In this document: positions 16,538 through 37,990 of the stretch, piece after piece | Layout: every line of letters begins with the position of its first letter | How positions within the stretch are numbered: the first letter of the stretch is position 1 | IMG/VR virus record: IMGVR_UViG_3300044624_003021 | Coordinates: 17,666 to 81,665 of that record | Origin: a virus | Reading direction: 5' to 3' (one strand) | Length of the DNA: 64,000 bases | Made by a program: the position numbers and the translations under genes | Notes under the pieces: model-generated | Database searches by the model: none | Seen by the model: only the letters and a program-made list of their open reading frames with translations | What the model was told of the DNA's origin: nothing

Positions 16538-18214
16538 TTACGCAGCATTAATTCCAAGAACGTCATCTATCTTTCTTCCGCTCTTAGCAATCAAACTATT
16601 ACCACTATCAACTCTACTTCTTATTGCCTTTTTGGACAATACATCAGTATTAAGTTCCCCATTTTCAACCGCTTTATTAATAACTTTAGCAAATTTTCTA
16701 AACCATCCTGGTCCGTTCCAAACCGCATAAGCAAAATGGAAGGTCAATCTTGAATCACTATCAACTAATTTCTTTGCCGTTGGAGACAAGTATCTATTTT
16801 TAAATTCGTTATAAAAAGGTTGAATAATATCAACAACTAAATCTGTGAGTTCTCCTTCAAGTTGTCCTCCTCTGTAGTTATATTTCCAAACCTGTTGACT
16901 TTTATTTTTGTCTATAATACCCCAAAACTTAATACCTGCAGGACTTGTATTATAGTTACCTCCATGTCTTCTATCAATTCCAAACATAGTCTCACCTGAC
17001 CTACCCATTCCTTTTGTATTGTGCCATTTTGGATTGTAATAACCTCCTTCCAAATTATTAATGACACTTCTTGTGATTTGTCTAAAATCAACTGAACCTG
17101 ATGGTGATATAATTTTCGGTTCTTTTTTAACGATTAATTCAGTTTCTTTTGATTTTATTGGTTCTAAAGTTTTAACAGGTCTTCTTTTAAAAATAACTTC
17201 TGACATTTTTTTGAAGTCTTTAGAATCAACTTTACCATCGACAGTTAACCCATTTTCAGATTCGAAGGACTCAACTGCGGTTTGTGTTTCTTTTCCAAAT
17301 TTACCATCAACACCAAATTTAGGTAAAGGATAACCCATAAGTGTCAAAGCTGTTTGTAAAATTTCAGTATTTGGATTAAAGATTTTTTGACCTTTAGGTT
17401 TTGGTTCATTGATTAATGTCAGATTTTTATTTGATAATTCGGTTAAACTATCGACAATATTTGAGTATTCATCACTTTCAGCCTGCTCCTTGAGTGATAA
17501 TTGTTTATCAATGTGCTTGTCTTCAAAATTAAAAAGTTTTTCAATATACCCGTTTCTTCTAAGAACTTTAAATACCAAATTTTCATCTGAATATTCTCCA
17601 TCTTTTTCAAGACCACAAGTACGATATTTTTTTAACTTATCTTTGTATTTTTTAATTATTTTCTTAGCACTTTCAATTGGTTCATCTGAAGCATTTTCTA
17701 TAACACTATCAATAATGTCCATCCATTGTTGAGACTTGGTTTTGATTAATTCCTTATCAATTTTGACAGTTTCTTTTTCAGGTTTGTTACTCCATTCATC
17801 AAATAACACAGAATAAACACCACTACTAAAATGAATTTCGGTTTCGTTTTGGACGTATAATTCAACGTCATAACCAAAAATCTTTATATTGTGTTTGTCG
17901 TTATATAAAGTTTTTTTGAGTTTGAATAACTCTTCGTATAGTGGTAATTGTTCTTCTGAAAACTGAGAAAAATTCGCAACAATATGTAAATCAATGTCTG
18001 AAAATTTTGACCAATTGTAGTTGGCAAGTGAACCTGTCATTATTACATCAGTAACAATAACGTCAACACCCAAAAATTCTATAAAATCATTGGTTATCTC
18101 CAATAGTCTCTCACGGACCTTTGGATTCATTTTTTGTCCGTCTTTGGACCAAATTTTTGGGTTCAGTTCATCTTGTAGATGAAAACTCGAAAGAATATCT
18201 TTTAAACTACTCAT
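16538..18214 (-). CDS. Three-domain protein: nucleotidyltransferase, peptidoglycan-binding, muralytic domain
   Basis: A 558-aa protein with an unusual architecture. Residues 1-125 resemble a minimal nucleotidyltransferase: Gly61-Ser62, then Asp73-x-Asp75 (SDIDLHIV) and a possible third acid Glu118. Residues about 282-340 match the PG_binding_1 pattern (LQTALTLMGYPL, GVDGKFGKETQTAVESFE). Residues about 376-540 look like a lysozyme/transglycosylase-type domain, with Glu389 in NNLEGGYYNP and a GETMFGID block as in GH108-like enzymes. It lies at the upstream end of the head cassette and is probably a virion protein acting on the cell wall at entry. The substrate of the transferase is unknown. Confidence 0.78.
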   Translation of the reverse strand: MSSLKDILSSFHLQDELNPKIWSKDGQKMNPKVRERLLEITNDFIEFLGVDVIVTDVIMTGSLANYNWSKFSDIDLHIVANFSQFSEEQLPLYEELFKLKKTLYNDKHNIKIFGYDVELYVQNETEIHFSSGVYSVLFDEWSNKPEKETVKIDKELIKTKSQQWMDIIDSVIENASDEPIESAKKIIKKYKDKLKKYRTCGLEKDGEYSDENLVFKVLRRNGYIEKLFNFEDKHIDKQLSLKEQAESDEYSNIVDSLTELSNKNLTLINEPKPKGQKIFNPNTEILQTALTLMGYPLPKFGVDGKFGKETQTAVESFESENGLTVDGKVDSKDFKKMSEVIFKRRPVKTLEPIKSKETELIVKKEPKIISPSGSVDFRQITRSVINNLEGGYYNPKWHNTKGMGRSGETMFGIDRRHGGNYNTSPAGIKFWGIIDKNKSQQVWKYNYRGGQLEGELTDLVVDIIQPFYNEFKNRYLSPTAKKLVDSDSRLTFHFAYAVWNGPGWFRKFAKVINKAVENGELNTDVLSKKAIRSRVDSGNSLIAKSGRKIDDVLGINAA

Positions 18215-23002: not shown

Positions 23003-23379
23003 GGGGGTAACTTGGAATTGACTAGCATGGTTGATTACTCGGAGCATGTCGAGGCTGAACTAACCTTGTAAAACTGGTTCACACGATAAACGGCAACGTT
23101 ATCAACAAACTCTCTGCAGTTGGTCTTATCCGTACTGAGGAGAACATTTCAGTAGCCTAATCTAGGATTAGCCTACAAAACGGGTCGGTAAGCATACAAC
23201 CTTGGAACAGAAGCTCGTACTGTGGTGTGGTTTCTACCCGAAAAGAAGCACAACTCGTTTGTGGTTTTGAGAGCTCAAAAACCAATATTTCGGAACATTG
23301 AGAAGCGATGTTGACCTAAACATGTAGGGCTTAGTAGTTAAAATGAGTAGGAAGGGGTTCGACTCCCCATACCTCCACC
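23003..23379 (+). ncRNA. ssrA: tmRNA
   Basis: About 377 nt. The 5' end GGGGGTA pairs with TACCTCC at the 3' end, with the G-U pair at position 3 typical of tmRNA. GAGCATGTCGAGG and the T-arm GGTTCGACTCC are characteristic. The open tag frame that ends at TAA (23158-23160) finishes in EENISVA; the resume codon is not certain. That stop lies in a hairpin, as in helix 5 of other tmRNAs. The usual Bacteroidota tag ends in ALAA, so this tag end is unusual. The final CCA is not fully encoded (CC then G). Strong terminator follows. Confidence 0.9.
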
Positions 23380-23383
23380 GTAA

Positions 23384-23864: not shown

Positions 23865-23928
23865 TGTACTATTTTTTTATATAAATATATGAAAAATAAA
23901 AAAGGTGGGTTTCCCCACCTGTGATTTG

Positions 23929-24001
23929 TTGCAACTGAAGGATTCGAACCTCCGACCTTCAGGTTATGAGCCTGACGAGCTGGCCTCTGCTCTAAGTTGC
24001 G
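23929..24001 (-). tRNA. tRNA-fMet(CAT), initiator-like
   Basis: A 73-nt cloverleaf with acceptor CGCAACT/AGTTGCA, giving the C1 x A72 mismatch that marks bacterial initiator tRNAs. The D-stem is GAGC/GCTC and the anticodon arm TCAGG-CTCATAA-CCTGA-AGGTC is nearly that of E. coli tRNA-fMet. The anticodon stem has two G-C pairs at its base rather than the usual three. CCA is not encoded. It forms the 3' end of the transcript carrying the large structured RNA. Confidence 0.88.
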
Positions 24002-24892
24002 ATGTAATAGTTGAACTAAGCCTGAGATTACAGCTTTGAGTGAGAACCTTTTGAAGGATTATTGTTTCCCTTCTTATCCACTTCCTTTTGAGAAGTATTT
24101 CTCAGTCACGGTCTTTTAGGTTTACCACTCCTTGAGGTTTAAGTTACTCTCTTATTACTTAACTCTTTCCGAGGTTGCCACCCCAGTTCATCCTTGCGGG
24201 ATTAAAGGTTTTTCGTAAAACTACAGTTAGACTTGGGGTCTTTCTGTGCCACGGACAACCCGTGACTGTGTAGTGACCTTTCACTCAAACCTGATGGACA
24301 CTTTTCCTTTAATTATTGTTCATAATTTTAGATTTGTGTCGTGGATGTGTCAGAGTAGTGGTCCACCGTAAGCTCCGTCTCCTTTTGGGTGACGAAATAC
24401 TAAACTACTCCGTGAGATATCCCTATCTCCATACTTTCAGATTACTTCATAAAGAGACCTTGGTAGGTCATCTTTAGGGGTAGTAGCGACACCACTCGTT
24501 CTCTACCTTACCTTTCGGTTTTAAATCCCCTTCGGTATTGGAATCCGCAATTGTGTAGTTGGAGCTACGTTTCTTACTTGATTCCTATGGGTTATTCTTG
24601 TTGGTGTTCCCACCTCAACTTGACAATCCACTTTGCCAAGTCACCTGACCACTTTCCCTACAGTGTTACCCTCGGTACTAAAGGTCTTGTGATATCCCAC
24701 TTGTGTACTCGAGTTCCTTTCGAAACCGCAACCTCCTCAACACGGGGGAGGTCACTTTATCCTACTTTCGTAGTTTATTTAAGGACCATACACGGCCCAT
24801 TATCTTTTATCAGTTGTCATCACCCGAAGGTTACTTTCACTGAATGGATAATCTTACTTTTCAAAGAACTTCTTCGGTCATTCCCGAATTGT
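24002..24892 (-). ncRNA. Large structured non-coding RNA (about 0.9 kb), GOLLD/ROOL-like candidate
   Basis: No plausible gene lies here, GC is visibly higher than in neighbours, and the minus strand folds into a long series of short perfect hairpins. Examples (minus strand): TTCGG/CCGAA near 24873-24888, CTAC-GAAA-GTAG, ACCTCC/GGAGGT, GTTTC-GAAA-GGAAC, GGTG-GGAA-CACC, GAGATA/TATCTC, CACGG/CCGTG and TGTAAT/ATTACA near the 3' end. It begins at a TTTG-N20-TAAATTTG promoter, has a boxA-like sequence right after it and ends at the tRNA. Giant ornate RNAs of the GOLLD and ROOL classes are known from phages next to tRNAs; membership is inferred from size and context only. Confidence 0.75.
24858..24872 (-). 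promoter_or_regulatory. boxA-like antitermination element in RNA leader
   Basis: GAAGTTCTTTGAAAA on the minus strand, about 25 nt after the promoter. It resembles the boxA of Bacteroidota rRNA leaders. Related sequences follow two other stable-RNA promoters of the window. Confidence 0.5.
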
Positions 24893-30932: not shown

Positions 30933-31961
30933 TTATTGGACCACAAATTTGTTTGTGGACGTTATTGTACCATTTCGGTCAACCGTGTTAAGAACGTAGA
31001 TTCCCGAAGAAAGTAATGATTTAACATCAATAACAACTTTACTTTGGTTTACATTTTCTTCATATACAATTTGACCTGACAAATTCATAATTCTTAGTTT
31101 TTGACCACTATAATCGTTCAGACCAGACAAATCAATATTAATAACATCTGTAGTTGGGTTGGGGAATACATCAATGTTTATAACTATGTTGGGGTTATCA
31201 GTATTAGTTGGGTTTTGGGAATTTGAATCTCTATAAAGTTTAAAAACTTCATCCTCATTCAAATCTCGATTCCACATTCCTACATCATCTAAATTACCTG
31301 ATAAAAATCTGTACATATTACCTTGGAAATTATCAGCTCCAAAAAATAAATTATTTTCAGATGGACAAATATCACCATATGTAGTTTGTTCACCGGTTAA
31401 TACTCCATTAACATACATTTTTCCACCATTTACAGGACTATGAGTAAAGACTAAGAAATGCCATTTATCATCAGCAGTACAAGTTCCACCATTAACATTA
31501 TTACCATTAATTGTATTCATATTAGTTGATGATATAAAGTTATTATCACCTATCAACATTGTATATGAATCAAAAGACCCTCCATTACATACATCAAAGT
31601 ATGAAAAAAACCATTTAGTAACAATTCCTTGGTAATCATCTACACTACTACCGACAGGTTTTTTTAACCATACAGAAATTGATAACGATGGGACGTTAGA
31701 AATACTTTCAGAATTATCGACCAAAATAAAATTATCAATTCCATTAAAATTATAGGCCATATCAGAATTACCAAATCTATCCATAGTTAAAGACGAACCA
31801 AAAACCTGTCCGTGGTTTTGATTTCCACTTTCATCATTGGCATTACCGTCAAACGGCCACCAACCGATAAGACCATTTGTTGGTAAATAATTTGGTACTT
31901 GAGATACAATCAAGTTGTAATAAAAAAGAGAAATTAATGTAAAAAAAATTGTTTTTTTCAT
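30933..31961 (-). CDS. Secreted LamG-domain protein with type IX secretion sorting domain
   Basis: A 342-aa protein: signal peptide ending IVSQ; residues about 30-245 are a LamG/concanavalin-like fold (GLIGWWPFDGNANDESGN, SISVWLKK, DDVGMWNRDLNEDE); residues about 262-342 form a type A Por/T9SS C-terminal domain (NIDVFPNPTTDVINID, LSSGIYVL, TNKFVVQ). In Bacteroidota this tail sends proteins through the type IX machinery to the cell surface. The ligand is unknown, perhaps a glycan. Presence in a phage implies use of the host's T9SS. Confidence 0.88.
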   Translation of the reverse strand: MKKTIFFTLISLFYYNLIVSQVPNYLPTNGLIGWWPFDGNANDESGNQNHGQVFGSSLTMDRFGNSDMAYNFNGIDNFILVDNSESISNVPSLSISVWLKKPVGSSVDDYQGIVTKWFFSYFDVCNGGSFDSYTMLIGDNNFISSTNMNTINGNNVNGGTCTADDKWHFLVFTHSPVNGGKMYVNGVLTGEQTTYGDICPSENNLFFGADNFQGNMYRFLSGNLDDVGMWNRDLNEDEVFKLYRDSNSQNPTNTDNPNIVINIDVFPNPTTDVINIDLSGLNDYSGQKLRIMNLSGQIVYEENVNQSKVVIDVKSLLSSGIYVLNTVDRNGTITSTNKFVVQ

Positions 31962-32130
31962 GTTATATATATTTTAAATTATTGAATACAAATTAAAGTC
32001 ATTTTTTTTAAACTGCCAAATTTTTTATGTGTTTGGTTAAATGTTGATTCCAAAGTAAGACGTAAATAAAATGGAATTATTCCATCTTTTCTTACATAAG
32101 TTGATATTACGATTGCTAATTTAATAATTA
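31962..32130. other. AT-rich intergenic region
   Basis: No gene, tRNA, terminator or clear promoter seen. Confidence 0.5.
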
Positions 32131-32916
32131 TTAATCTTGATTTTTTTTATAAAATCTATTTTCTTCAGGTTGATACCATTCATCTAATGAAGCCGGTACC
32201 CTTGAAGAATATCCCAGAAATTGTTGCATTTTAGGAGTAAAGGTGTTCATAATATCATACCCTAAAGCTCTTGGGTAATCAAGTAATTGTTTCATAAATG
32301 ACCTACTTATAGTTATTGGTATTGCTCGTCTATTTTTATTAGTTTTGTTAGGTGATGACGAATGCCATACATTAGAATTAAATATTAATATGTCTCCTCT
32401 ATTTCCTGTCGCCTGATATGAGTTTGAAAAAAATTCTGAATCGGATGGTTTTTCCTCACTTAAATGAGAACCTGATAGTAAAAAAGTTCCACCATTTTCT
32501 AAAGTAAAATCGTCAACCATAACTAAACAATTAATCATAATTGGGAAATCTCCCGAGTAAAACCTCAAATCTCTGTGGATAATTGATGAAAAATTTGGTT
32601 TAAATGGTAGGTTATTTAACGCACTAAATGAATTTAAGATACAGTTACTTTTAAAAAAATTATTTTGTAGTGAATCAATAAATCCATTGTCAAGTAATAC
32701 TTGTAAAAATTCAATGAAAATCTTACTGTCTAAAATAGCGTGGAGAGCAACTCCATCTGAGTTTATTTCATTATTATTACTTATTTGAATATTTCTATGT
32801 TTAACAAAAGATTTATCCATCTCTTCAGAAAGCATATCTAACCATTCTGTGCTAACTTGATTTTTAATTATAGTATGACCTTTCATACTTAATTCATTTA
32901 ATTGGTCAATTGTCAT
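32131..32916 (-). CDS. Phytanoyl-CoA dioxygenase-like Fe(II)/2-oxoglutarate oxygenase
   Basis: A 261-aa protein with the PhyH-family iron site: His114-x-Asp116 (IIHRDLRF), distal His185 (NVWHSSSPN), and a 2-oxoglutarate-binding Arg at 196-197. The segment TFLLSGSHLSEEKPS is also typical. It would hydroxylate a small molecule, a sugar or a protein. The start overlaps the end of the acetyltransferase gene by 4 nt, so it belongs to the three-gene sugar-type operon. Confidence 0.85.
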   Translation of the reverse strand: MTIDQLNELSMKGHTIIKNQVSTEWLDMLSEEMDKSFVKHRNIQISNNNEINSDGVALHAILDSKIFIEFLQVLLDNGFIDSLQNNFFKSNCILNSFSALNNLPFKPNFSSIIHRDLRFYSGDFPIMINCLVMVDDFTLENGGTFLLSGSHLSEEKPSDSEFFSNSYQATGNRGDILIFNSNVWHSSSPNKTNKNRRAIPITISRSFMKQLLDYPRALGYDIMNTFTPKMQQFLGYSSRVPASLDEWYQPEENRFYKKNQD

Positions 32917-33578
32917 TTTAAAAATTTTTCTCCTTTTATTCTTTTTCTAATTATTTTAGCCGGATTACCATACGCTAAAACATCGTCAGGTAAAGATTTA
33001 ATTACTAAACTTCCAGCACCAACAACAGTATTATCTCCTATTTCTAATCTATCTAAAACAGTGACTCCCAGAGTAATTGCCGAATATTTACCAATTTTTA
33101 CATAACCTCCAGTAATTGAACCCGCGGAAATACTTGCAAAGTCTGATATTATATTATCATGTTCAACCTGAGCCCCTGTTGCAAAAAAAGTAAAGTCACC
33201 AATTTTTGATTTTGGGTTAAATATACATCCGGCCATAGCCACAATCCCAACACCCATCTCAGTTGTATTACCAATGATTACTGATGGATGTATTGCGTTA
33301 ACAAATTTGAAATTAGGAACCATTGAAATTATTTTTTCATGTACGTAATACCTAGTCCAATTCTCACCTATTGATATTACACCTCCATAAACTTCATATT
33401 CATTTATTATTTGTTTTAAATTTTCTTCTCTTCCTAAAATTTTATATCCATATTTAATACTACCAATTTCATTTATCGAATCAATAATACCTACAATTTT
33501 ATATTTATTTTCTTTTTCAATAATGTCGATGGTATAATGAGATTGATTACCCCCACCAAATAAAACAATATTTTCCAT
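32913..33578 (-). CDS. NeuD/PglD-type sugar O/N-acetyltransferase
   Basis: A 221-aa protein with an N-terminal Rossmann-like part (ENIVLFGGGNQSHYTIDII) and a C-terminal left-handed beta-helix of hexapeptide repeats (SVIIGNTTEMGVGIVAMAG, ending VVGAGSLVIKSLPDDVLAYGNPAK). This architecture is that of NeuD/PglD acyltransferases acting on nucleotide-linked amino sugars. The upstream aminotransferase would supply the amino group. Confidence 0.87.
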   Translation of the reverse strand: MENIVLFGGGNQSHYTIDIIEKENKYKIVGIIDSINEIGSIKYGYKILGREENLKQIINEYEVYGGVISIGENWTRYYVHEKIISMVPNFKFVNAIHPSVIIGNTTEMGVGIVAMAGCIFNPKSKIGDFTFFATGAQVEHDNIISDFASISAGSITGGYVKIGKYSAITLGVTVLDRLEIGDNTVVGAGSLVIKSLPDDVLAYGNPAKIIRKRIKGEKFLK

Positions 33579-33580
33579 AA

Positions 33581-34225
33581 TTAATTAATTTTAGTGTAGA
33601 TTTTAAATTTAGATAAATCAGGATAAGGTAATTCTAAATCTTCGTTGATAATAGGAATTCCCTTCGAATCATAGAACTGACTAATTAAAAGTAATCCTCT
33701 TGCCGCAATTTCAGGCATCATGTAGAAATTCCATCCGATTACCGGATTTTTATCAAAATCATCATCATGATAACTACATTCATCACGACCGCTAAATCTA
33801 GCCTTTTTAAACCACTTGTAGGCATTTTCATCATCAGTTAAAATAGCACCACCTTTGCCCAATTTTAAATGTTTGTATGGTCCTGTGAAAGATACACACA
33901 TATGTGTGTTTGGAATGTACATGTTATGAGTAAATCTTAACGCACTATCCCAAACTTTAGTTGGATATAACTGATATGCCCCTTTAATCGTATCTCCTTC
34001 CACATTAAAGAATTTAACTTTACCTCCTGCGTGAATTATTTCACAAGGGACCGATGGATATGTCCTACAAGGAATTTCAATATCCATTCCCTTCACATTT
34101 TCATACATCAGAGATAAAAAAAGTGCATTACTTTGATTATCTACTGTAACTACAAACGGAGCTCCGGTATAGTCTGATAATTTTTTTTCAAATTCTTCAG
34201 TTATTTTATGAACGCCTTGTGCCAT
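33581..34225 (-). CDS. Short DegT/DnrJ/EryC1-type PLP aminotransferase
   Basis: A 214-aa protein. The PLP-site region SFTGPYKHLKLGKGGAI contains the expected Lys, and IEIPCRTYPSVPCEIIHAGG matches the family's N-terminal region. It is little more than half the usual 370-aa length; the C-terminal subdomain is missing although the frame is intact. It may be a compact phage form. It starts the operon aminotransferase, acetyltransferase, dioxygenase. Confidence 0.8.
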   Translation of the reverse strand: MAQGVHKITEEFEKKLSDYTGAPFVVTVDNQSNALFLSLMYENVKGMDIEIPCRTYPSVPCEIIHAGGKVKFFNVEGDTIKGAYQLYPTKVWDSALRFTHNMYIPNTHMCVSFTGPYKHLKLGKGGAILTDDENAYKWFKKARFSGRDECSYHDDDFDKNPVIGWNFYMMPEIAARGLLLISQFYDSKGIPIINEDLELPYPDLSKFKIYTKIN

Positions 34226-34328: not shown

Positions 34329-34473
34329 TAGTCAAGGAAGGATTCGAACCTCCACGGGCTGCCATTATAGTGACCACACGCATTGTGCTTTTTTACCCCT
34401 AGTGCTATAACCATCTAGTACGTCTACCTTGAGAGTATGTTTCCGGAGACTCTCAATATTCCGCCACTTGACT
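34329..34473 (-). tRNA. tRNA-like element with inserted hairpin in the D-loop
   Basis: The acceptor AGTCAAG/CTTGACT and T-arm GGAGG-TTCGAAT-CCTTC are intact. The D-loop looks like a tRNA-Leu loop interrupted by a hairpin TGAGAGT/ACTCTCA (GAATAT...AGGTAGACG). The centre contains TTATAG/CTATAA and CACA/TGTG instead of a normal anticodon arm. Span 145 nt. No anticodon can be assigned. Confidence 0.45.
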
Positions 34474-34485
34474 ATGTTTAACTAG

Positions 34486-34559
34486 TGCACCCTGCAGGAT
34501 TCGAACCTGCCACCCAGTGATTATGAGTCACTTGCTCTAACCTAATGAGCTAAGGGTGC
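34486..34559 (-). tRNA. tRNA-Met(CAT), elongator (or Ile2 with modified CAT)
   Basis: A 74-nt cloverleaf: acceptor GCACCCT/AGGGTGC (G1-C72, so not initiator), D-stem GCTC/GAGC, anticodon arm AGTGA-CTCATAA-TCACT, T-arm GCAGG/CCTGC. The anticodon CAT also fits lysidine-modified tRNA-Ile2; bases alone do not settle it. Confidence 0.87.
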
Positions 34560-34564
34560 TTTGG

Positions 34565-34851
34565 TACTGGGTGTGGGACTCGAACCCACACGGACGCAAT
34601 GTCCACAGGATTTTCTTACCACTATAGTTTTCACTACCAACTAAAAGTTGTTTGTGGTCTGGACTATACCTTCACCATATCTTACGATTTAGGTGCTCCG
34701 TGTCTAGTCTCTACACCTTCCTTTTCAGGCTTGGCTCGGGGTTCCCACTTTCGGAGGGTTCACCGAATTTACGGAGTTCTACATTCTTGATTTCTCAAGA
34801 CGCACTCAAATAGTTAAAGTCCTGAATGTCTACCTATTCCATCAACCCAGC
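34565..34851 (-). tRNA. tRNA-Leu(TAA) interrupted by a group I intron
   Basis: Exon 1 is 34817-34851 (acceptor GCTGGGT, D-arm ATG/CAT with GAATAGGTAGA, CAGGA then CTT) and exon 2 is 34565-34614 (AAAATCCTG, variable arm GGAC/GTCC, T-arm GTGGG/CCCAC, ACCCAGT). Joined they give anticodon loop CTTAAAA, anticodon UAA, 85 nt. The split between U34 and A35 is the classic position of trnL group I introns. It is the first gene of its operon. Confidence 0.9.
34615..34816 (-). ncRNA. Group I intron in tRNA-Leu(UAA), trnL (IC3-like) type
   Basis: 202 nt. The exon ends in U and the intron ends in G, as group I splicing needs; ACTT of the exon can pair with GAGT in the intron (P1 with a U-G at the cut). 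CTTGA-GAAA-TCAAG forms a P2-like hairpin. Core segments AATTCGGTGAACCCTCCGAA, CCCCGAGCCAAGCC, AGGTGTAGAGACTAGAC and AAGGTATAGTCC correspond to those of cyanobacterial and plastid trnL introns. No homing endonuclease is encoded, so it is a minimal intron. Confidence 0.88.
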
Positions 34852-37498: not shown

Positions 37499-37990
37499 AT
37501 GGAGAAAGTTTTAGTTCTAAACTCAGATTTTACCCCCATTAATGTGACATCCGTTTATAAGGGGTTCAATTTGGTAAATAAAGGTAAGGCTGAGATATTA
37601 AAATCTCACGAAAAACCTATACTTGCTGGTTTACAAACATTTGTTAGACCTCTTATTATACGTCTTTTCAATTATGTCAAATTCAGATACCACAAATTAA
37701 AAATTAATCGTCATAGACTTTTTAGACGAGATGACTATCAATGTGTTTATTGTGGTAGTAAAAAAAATTTAACGGTTGACCATGTCATTCCTAAATCACG
37801 AGGTGGGGACAATACTTGGTTAAATCTTGTTACTTGTTGTTCGTCATGTAACCGTACAAAAGATAATTGTACACCTGAGGAAGCGGGTATGAAGTTTTTA
37901 AAAAAACCATACGAACCAACAATATTTTCAGATGTTGTTAACCCTCAGGTTGAGTTTGTGTGGGAGGAGTTCAGAAAATCCTTCATATAA
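37499..37990 (+). CDS. HNH endonuclease
   Basis: A 163-aa protein. Residues about 80-125 carry the HNH motif with zinc cysteines: CVYCGSKKNLTVDHVIPKS, then NLVTCCSSCNRTK. The N-terminal part (VLNSDFTPINVTSVYKGF) is that of stand-alone HNH proteins common in Bacteroidota and phages. Possible roles are DNA packaging help, homing or host attack. TATATTTG lies 5 nt before the ATG. Confidence 0.88.
   Translation: MEKVLVLNSDFTPINVTSVYKGFNLVNKGKAEILKSHEKPILAGLQTFVRPLIIRLFNYVKFRYHKLKINRHRLFRRDDYQCVYCGSKKNLTVDHVIPKSRGGDNTWLNLVTCCSSCNRTKDNCTPEEAGMKFLKKPYEPTIFSDVVNPQVEFVWEEFRKSFI

Follow-up and report, generated by a model that had tools for sequence, protein, structure and literature searches.

A minimal, probably working group I intron in the tRNA-Leu(UAA) gene of a phage and its relatives in phages and Sediminibacterium

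The tRNA-Leu(UAA) gene described here lies in a stretch of 64,000 nucleotides (positions 17,666 to 81,665 of the IMG/VR virus record IMGVR_UViG_3300044624_003021; hereafter the window), and it is interrupted within its anticodon by a minimal group I intron, which most likely works. Judging from sequence kinship, the intron belongs to a lineage that is found mostly in phages but also in chromosomes of the freshwater Bacteroidota genus Sediminibacterium, a lineage that probably spreads by homing and of which the window would carry a nuclease-free copy; we hold this account as a whole with considerable confidence.

With introns allowed (option -i), ARAGORN predicted a tRNA-Leu(taa) gene with encoded CCA at complement(34562..34851), interrupted after the first anticodon base. 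The 5' exon (34817..34851, minus strand) extends up to U34 and ends in CAGGACUU, the 202-nt intron (34615..34816, minus strand) starts with UAACUAUUUGAGU and ends in GGUAAG, the last letter being the terminal G, and the 3' exon (34562..34614, minus strand) begins at A35 with AAAAUCCUG and ends in CCA. The insertion is thus located between U34 and A35, flanked by CUU and AAAA, and the joined exons adopt the standard 88-nt tRNA-Leu(UAA) fold with its CCA end. Neither ARAGORN run without introns nor Rfam at the gathering threshold recovered this gene. The first-pass annotation, made from the sequence alone, had described a tRNA-Leu(UAA) gene at 34565-34851 that is split at U34/A35 by a 202-nt intron; ARAGORN agrees on the split and on the intron (34816..34615), and its prediction differs only by the encoded CCA. 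The locus is also present with 99.97% identity over 9,328 bp in an independent contig of 107,982 bp (L046), so the split locus is no assembly accident, and the split gene and its insertion site are real. The phage has reason to carry this tRNA, because UUA is the commonest leucine codon in its sampled genes (43% of Leu codons). A tRNA-Met(CAU) gene (34485..34559, minus strand; found by ARAGORN, Rfam 69 bits), which is given for context only, lies directly downstream. A further tRNA-Leu-like gene at 34330-34476 (minus strand) has an 8-bp hairpin inserted in its D loop, odd anticodon and variable arms, and an Rfam tRNA score of only 16 bits; in phage L026, the D loop of a similar neighbouring gene, which is tRNA-Leu(CAA)-like, is normal.

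Introns of trnL genes belong to subgroup IC3 of the group I introns. Under lax thresholds the Rfam model RF00028 matched the window intron over its entire length (model positions 1-253 of 253) with 49.5 bits and an E value of 1.4e-11, which is 0.5 bit below the curated cut-off of 50 bits. A search of the phage's own genome with this model gave no match, probably since the match sits just under the cut-off and the initial look is a loose one, and the related intron of L107 scores above it. In an alignment of 38 related introns, each with 8 nt of both exons, the helices P1, P2, P3, P4, P5, P6, P7, P8, P9, P9.2 and P10 could be named. Standard pairs occupy 98.1% of the cells from P1 to P10, and 24 of the 48 pairs show compensatory changes on both sides. 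When the pairing partners were slid by one to three columns, pairing fell to 33-42% and the covariation score to 0.04-0.09 (compared with 0.437 for the true partners); pairing and covariation are therefore far above chance. The P3-P9 core with the conserved P7 and the P3/P7 pseudoknot is present, with paired cells at 100% in P3, P4, P6 and P8 and at 99.5% in P7, again with compensatory changes. The P1 U-G pair at the 5' cut occurs in all 38 sequences, the intron carries its terminal G, the splice sites are invariant across the 38 relatives, and in P10 the exon AAA pairs with a UUU adjoining the P1 guide. The designation as a group I intron is hence upheld by the RF00028 match and by the covariation from P1 to P10; all core segments listed in the first-pass annotation were found in the intron, its U-G pair at the cut proved to be invariant, and the covariance scan it had proposed as a check did return a full-length hit.

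Because the helices, the U-G pair, P10 and the terminal G have been kept, the intron is built like a working group I intron, and we infer that the transcript splices. It would fold into P1-P10, guanosine would attack after U34 at the P1 U-G pair, the freed 5' exon would then attack behind the terminal G, and joining of the exons would yield a tRNA-Leu(UAA) decoding UUA.

The virus record is a contig of 81.7 kb, possibly a fragment, which encodes a T4-like head protein, a portal, a protease and a terminase. Flavobacterium phages and uncultured huge phages are among its nearest named relatives, and one of its genes has a T9SS C-terminal sorting domain typical of Bacteroidota. The earlier description of a Bacteroidota-type phage fits these T4-like genes, the Flavobacterium phages among the nearest isolates, and the sorting domain. 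Elsewhere in the window, a GOLLD RNA (24019-24412, minus strand; 320.6 bits), a large structured RNA found here in a T4-like phage of an apparent Bacteroidota host, adjoins a tRNA-Met(CAU) gene (23928-24001), and the phage encodes a tmRNA (23003-23380, plus strand; 93 bits). Genes for a T9SS-sorted lectin-like protein, a PhyH dioxygenase, a hexapeptide acyltransferase and a DegT aminotransferase at 30933-34225 (minus strand) suggest surface sugar modification.

Introns at this site are widespread in viruses. Viral contigs (virus status being the IMG/VR assignment) were scanned with tRNA-anchored patterns, and matches were checked by core and exons. At a spacing of 180-210 nt, 86 virus contigs matched, about 68 of them with group I features; about 17-18 were dropped for want of a group I core. 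With longer spacing ranges included, a total of 79 virus contigs with 56 distinct introns was obtained. In the cultured Agrobacterium phage Atu_ph07, the same trnL site holds an intron of 278 nt, and the huge phage LR756501 matched 94% of the query at 72% identity. A scan of bacterial genomes gave at least 119 stretches, at least 118 of which contain a recognisable trnL intron, distributed over Alpha-, Beta- and Gammaproteobacteria, Bacteroidota, Cyanobacteria, Acidobacteriota, Planctomycetota, Clostridia and one Bdellovibrionota genome. With introns in so many phyla, the trnL position is no special sign of cyanobacteria. Lateral transfer among cyanobacteria and a trnL intron of a gamma-proteobacterium were reportedly described in 2002, in work by Rudi and by Vepritskiy.

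Several individual loci deserve mention in their own right. On a contig from a Bacteroidota MAG (L107:770-2622) a trnL intron lies beside serine recombinase and mutS genes and pairs in the tree with the intron of huge phage LR756501, and the trnL intron of a Tatlockia MAG (L145) falls inside the cyanobacterial group, through either contamination or transfer. Two group I introns apparently interrupt the tRNA-Leu of Prevotella phage Lak-C1 (L004:878-1612); the first lies in the D arm (between GGTA and GACACG), the second at U34/A35, and each has its own core motif. In Microcoleus phage My-WqHQDG (L006:1313-1598) a 213-nt intron interrupts tRNA-Arg(CCU), resembling the intron known from this tRNA gene in bacteria.

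In a maximum-likelihood tree of 175 introns, which is based on a short alignment and includes cyanobacterial but not plastid introns, the window intron, those of phages L026 and L045, and 15 introns from the genus Sediminibacterium form one clade (99/96), and most other viral introns adjoin it. The cyanobacterial introns group by themselves (100/100), with a long stem of 1.06 changes per site. A trnL intron tree had been proposed in the first-pass annotation, which pointed to the site shared with cyanobacterial and plastid trnL introns; the window intron falls far from the cyanobacteria, and a special tie to the cyanobacterial and plastid intron is not borne out. A nesting of the Sediminibacterium introns inside the viral ones was considered as well, but the AU test does not reject a tree in which the viral introns form one group apart from the cellular ones (p 0.41), and we therefore claim joint kinship only. 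Between the window and Sediminibacterium the introns are 86-89% identical and the exons 79-84%, which points to movement of the intron separate from that of the tRNA. The notion of an old intron travelling on phages can thus be retained in part: exchange of the trnL intron between phages and bacteria is supported in general, whereas the special link to cyanobacteria is not.

Among 121 genomes sampled from the genus Sediminibacterium, 14 have the intron and 77 an intact trnL; in a sample of 200 genomes from the family, the intron was found only in the starting genome, and 177 genomes have an intact trnL. Two additional pattern matches in Chitinophagaceae were discarded, as they represent intact tRNAs followed by another AAAATCC. 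Occupied and empty trnL alleles coexist within the genus. For example, the loci L218 and L233 are 92.6% identical over 1.5 kb upstream to the insertion point, and the match resumes past the 218-nt intron. Occupied and empty alleles with matching flanks mean that the intron is patchily present in one gene and at one place, and the neighbouring genes for a trypsin/PDZ protease, LuxC and a D-Ala-D-Ala ligase identify this locus as chromosomal.

The HNH endonucleases associated with trnL introns belong to one, phrog_10822-like family. The gene lies inside the 700-nt trnL intron of huge phage LR756511 (L003) and inside the trnL(UAA) introns of L410, L412, L413, L419, L421 and L423 (the last two near-identical), and it is located 157 bp downstream of the intron in the sister phage L045. 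In Sediminibacterium it was found 101-223 bp downstream of the intron at 7 of 14 occupied loci and at none of 6 empty ones. In viruses it lies less than 1 kb from 8 of 56 distinct trnL introns, compared with 0 of 119 intronless trnL loci (Fisher p 8e-5), the queries for this comparison having come from intron-bearing loci. Among the at least 118 intron loci listed in the cellular scan, only two had the HNH gene, both in the genus Sediminibacterium. A search with the HNH protein only, and hence blind to tRNAs, yielded 64 virus loci, about 16 of which have the gene inside (six) or directly downstream of (about ten) a trnL intron, two ambiguous loci (L404, L427) being left out of this count. Moreover, 54 of the 64 lie less than 500 bp from a tRNA, mostly a tRNA-Leu and in many cases an intact one; since the same family also adjoins intact tRNA-Leu genes, its tie is to tRNA-Leu and not to the intron alone. 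HNH genes are thus co-located with trnL introns, which look like mobile elements common to phages and bacteria.

The window intron itself has no endonuclease gene inside or directly beside it, and the statement in the first-pass annotation that it lacks a homing nuclease is matched by the absence of a nuclease ORF in its 202 nt. The free HNH gene mentioned there at a distance of 2.6 kb is real (37499..37990, plus strand; Pfam HNH_5, 2.8e-15; 2.65 kb from the tRNA), and it is probably not part of the intron element. As a mobility partner it was rejected, its best PHROG being 16726 instead of 10822, with no significant match to the trnL-associated HNH. The latter family is absent from the 81.7-kb record of this phage, which may be a fragment.

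The simplest reading of these patterns is that the HNH protein is a homing endonuclease which is directed at tRNA-Leu genes and takes the intron with it, alone or by collaborative homing. Cutting, homing and any direction of movement are likewise inferred: an HNH endonuclease encoded in the intron or just beside the tRNA would cut intronless tRNA-Leu genes, and repair of the cut would copy the intron in. The window copy would then be a nuclease-free derivative, dependent on phage descent or on the nuclease of another phage.

Alternatively, the phage might have taken a whole intron-bearing tRNA-Leu gene from its host and simply inherit it, the intron not itself being mobile here. Phages frequently capture tRNAs, close introns are carried by Sediminibacterium, the window intron lacks a nuclease, and no member of the associated HNH family occurs in the record. 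We nevertheless regard this scenario as rather unlikely, because the introns are more alike than the exons, whereas joint descent with a conserved tRNA would lead one to expect the opposite, and because relatives of the intron carry HNH genes inside or adjoining it. That the intron has decayed and no longer splices, leaving a dead tRNA gene, could be suspected from an RF00028 score just short of the cut-off; the retention of the core helices, the splice-site U-G pair, P10, the terminal G and intact exons makes this very improbable.

As to its origin, the intron could have jumped into the tRNA from group I introns in phage protein genes and have reached the trnL position by convergence. A stretch between two capsid ORFs of Pelagibacter phage HTVC120P is 76% identical to half of the query, and shorter matches occur at DnaB-type helicase genes of crAss-like phages. 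These protein-gene matches span the core only, whereas full-length relatives with the same exon boundaries are located in trnL(UAA), where the searches were anchored, and we consider such a jump improbable. Even less credence, close to none, is given to direct descent from the cyanobacterial or plastid trnL intron via cyanophages. The insertion site is identical and some viral introns begin with AAUUGAGCC like the cyanobacterial ones, but the cyanobacteria stand apart on their long stem, the window intron being placed with introns of Bacteroidota and other phages. The reading we prefer remains a working intron of a phage and Sediminibacterium lineage with probable homing.

The window intron shares its gene, its position at U34/A35, its group I core and its lack of an ORF with the cyanobacterial trnL intron (cited in PMC3984707 and PMC11878797). 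In contrast to the latter, it belongs to a separate group in the tree, resides in a phage genome, and has relatives that carry an HNH gene within the intron or next to it. The chromosomal introns of Sediminibacterium (L099, L129, L140, L157, L209, L216-L229) occupy the same gene and site, but they have an extra 5' hairpin (217-219 nt in total length), and half of them are followed about 100 bp downstream by an HNH gene that the window lacks. The introns of LR756511, L410, L412, L413, L419 and L421 agree with the window in gene, site and splice boundaries, yet measure 700-993 nt with HNH inside. Collaborative homing, in which an intron is paired with a free-standing endonuclease, has been described for cyanophage F-CphI/psbA and for T7-like phages (PMC10448857, PMC6083498). 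As in those systems, intron and endonuclease gene are neighbours at one target gene, although the targets there are protein genes, whereas here the target is a tRNA gene, cutting is only presumed, and the window is without a partner. The cyanobacterial trnfMet intron (Bonocora and Shub 2001, as cited in PMC3984707) is likewise a homing-type intron in a tRNA anticodon; it differs in that it is cellular, interrupts tRNA-fMet and harbours its nuclease within the intron.

The phage trnL introns, some of them with endonuclease genes, extend a known intron type. Set against the part of the literature that was searched, the present sequences contribute many phage trnL introns, empty and occupied alleles within one genus, and HNH genes inside or beside the intron. 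Tentatively, and as a proposition that we ourselves consider unlikely, a mobile trnL intron might have its main reservoir in viruses, home with its HNH endonuclease into tRNA-Leu(UAA), seed chromosomes such as those of Sediminibacterium and later lose the nuclease. If this were true, such invasions would have left the old trnL introns of bacteria, which lack a nuclease, as their fossils. How trnL introns spread is a long-standing question, for which the HNH endonuclease offers a testable agent.
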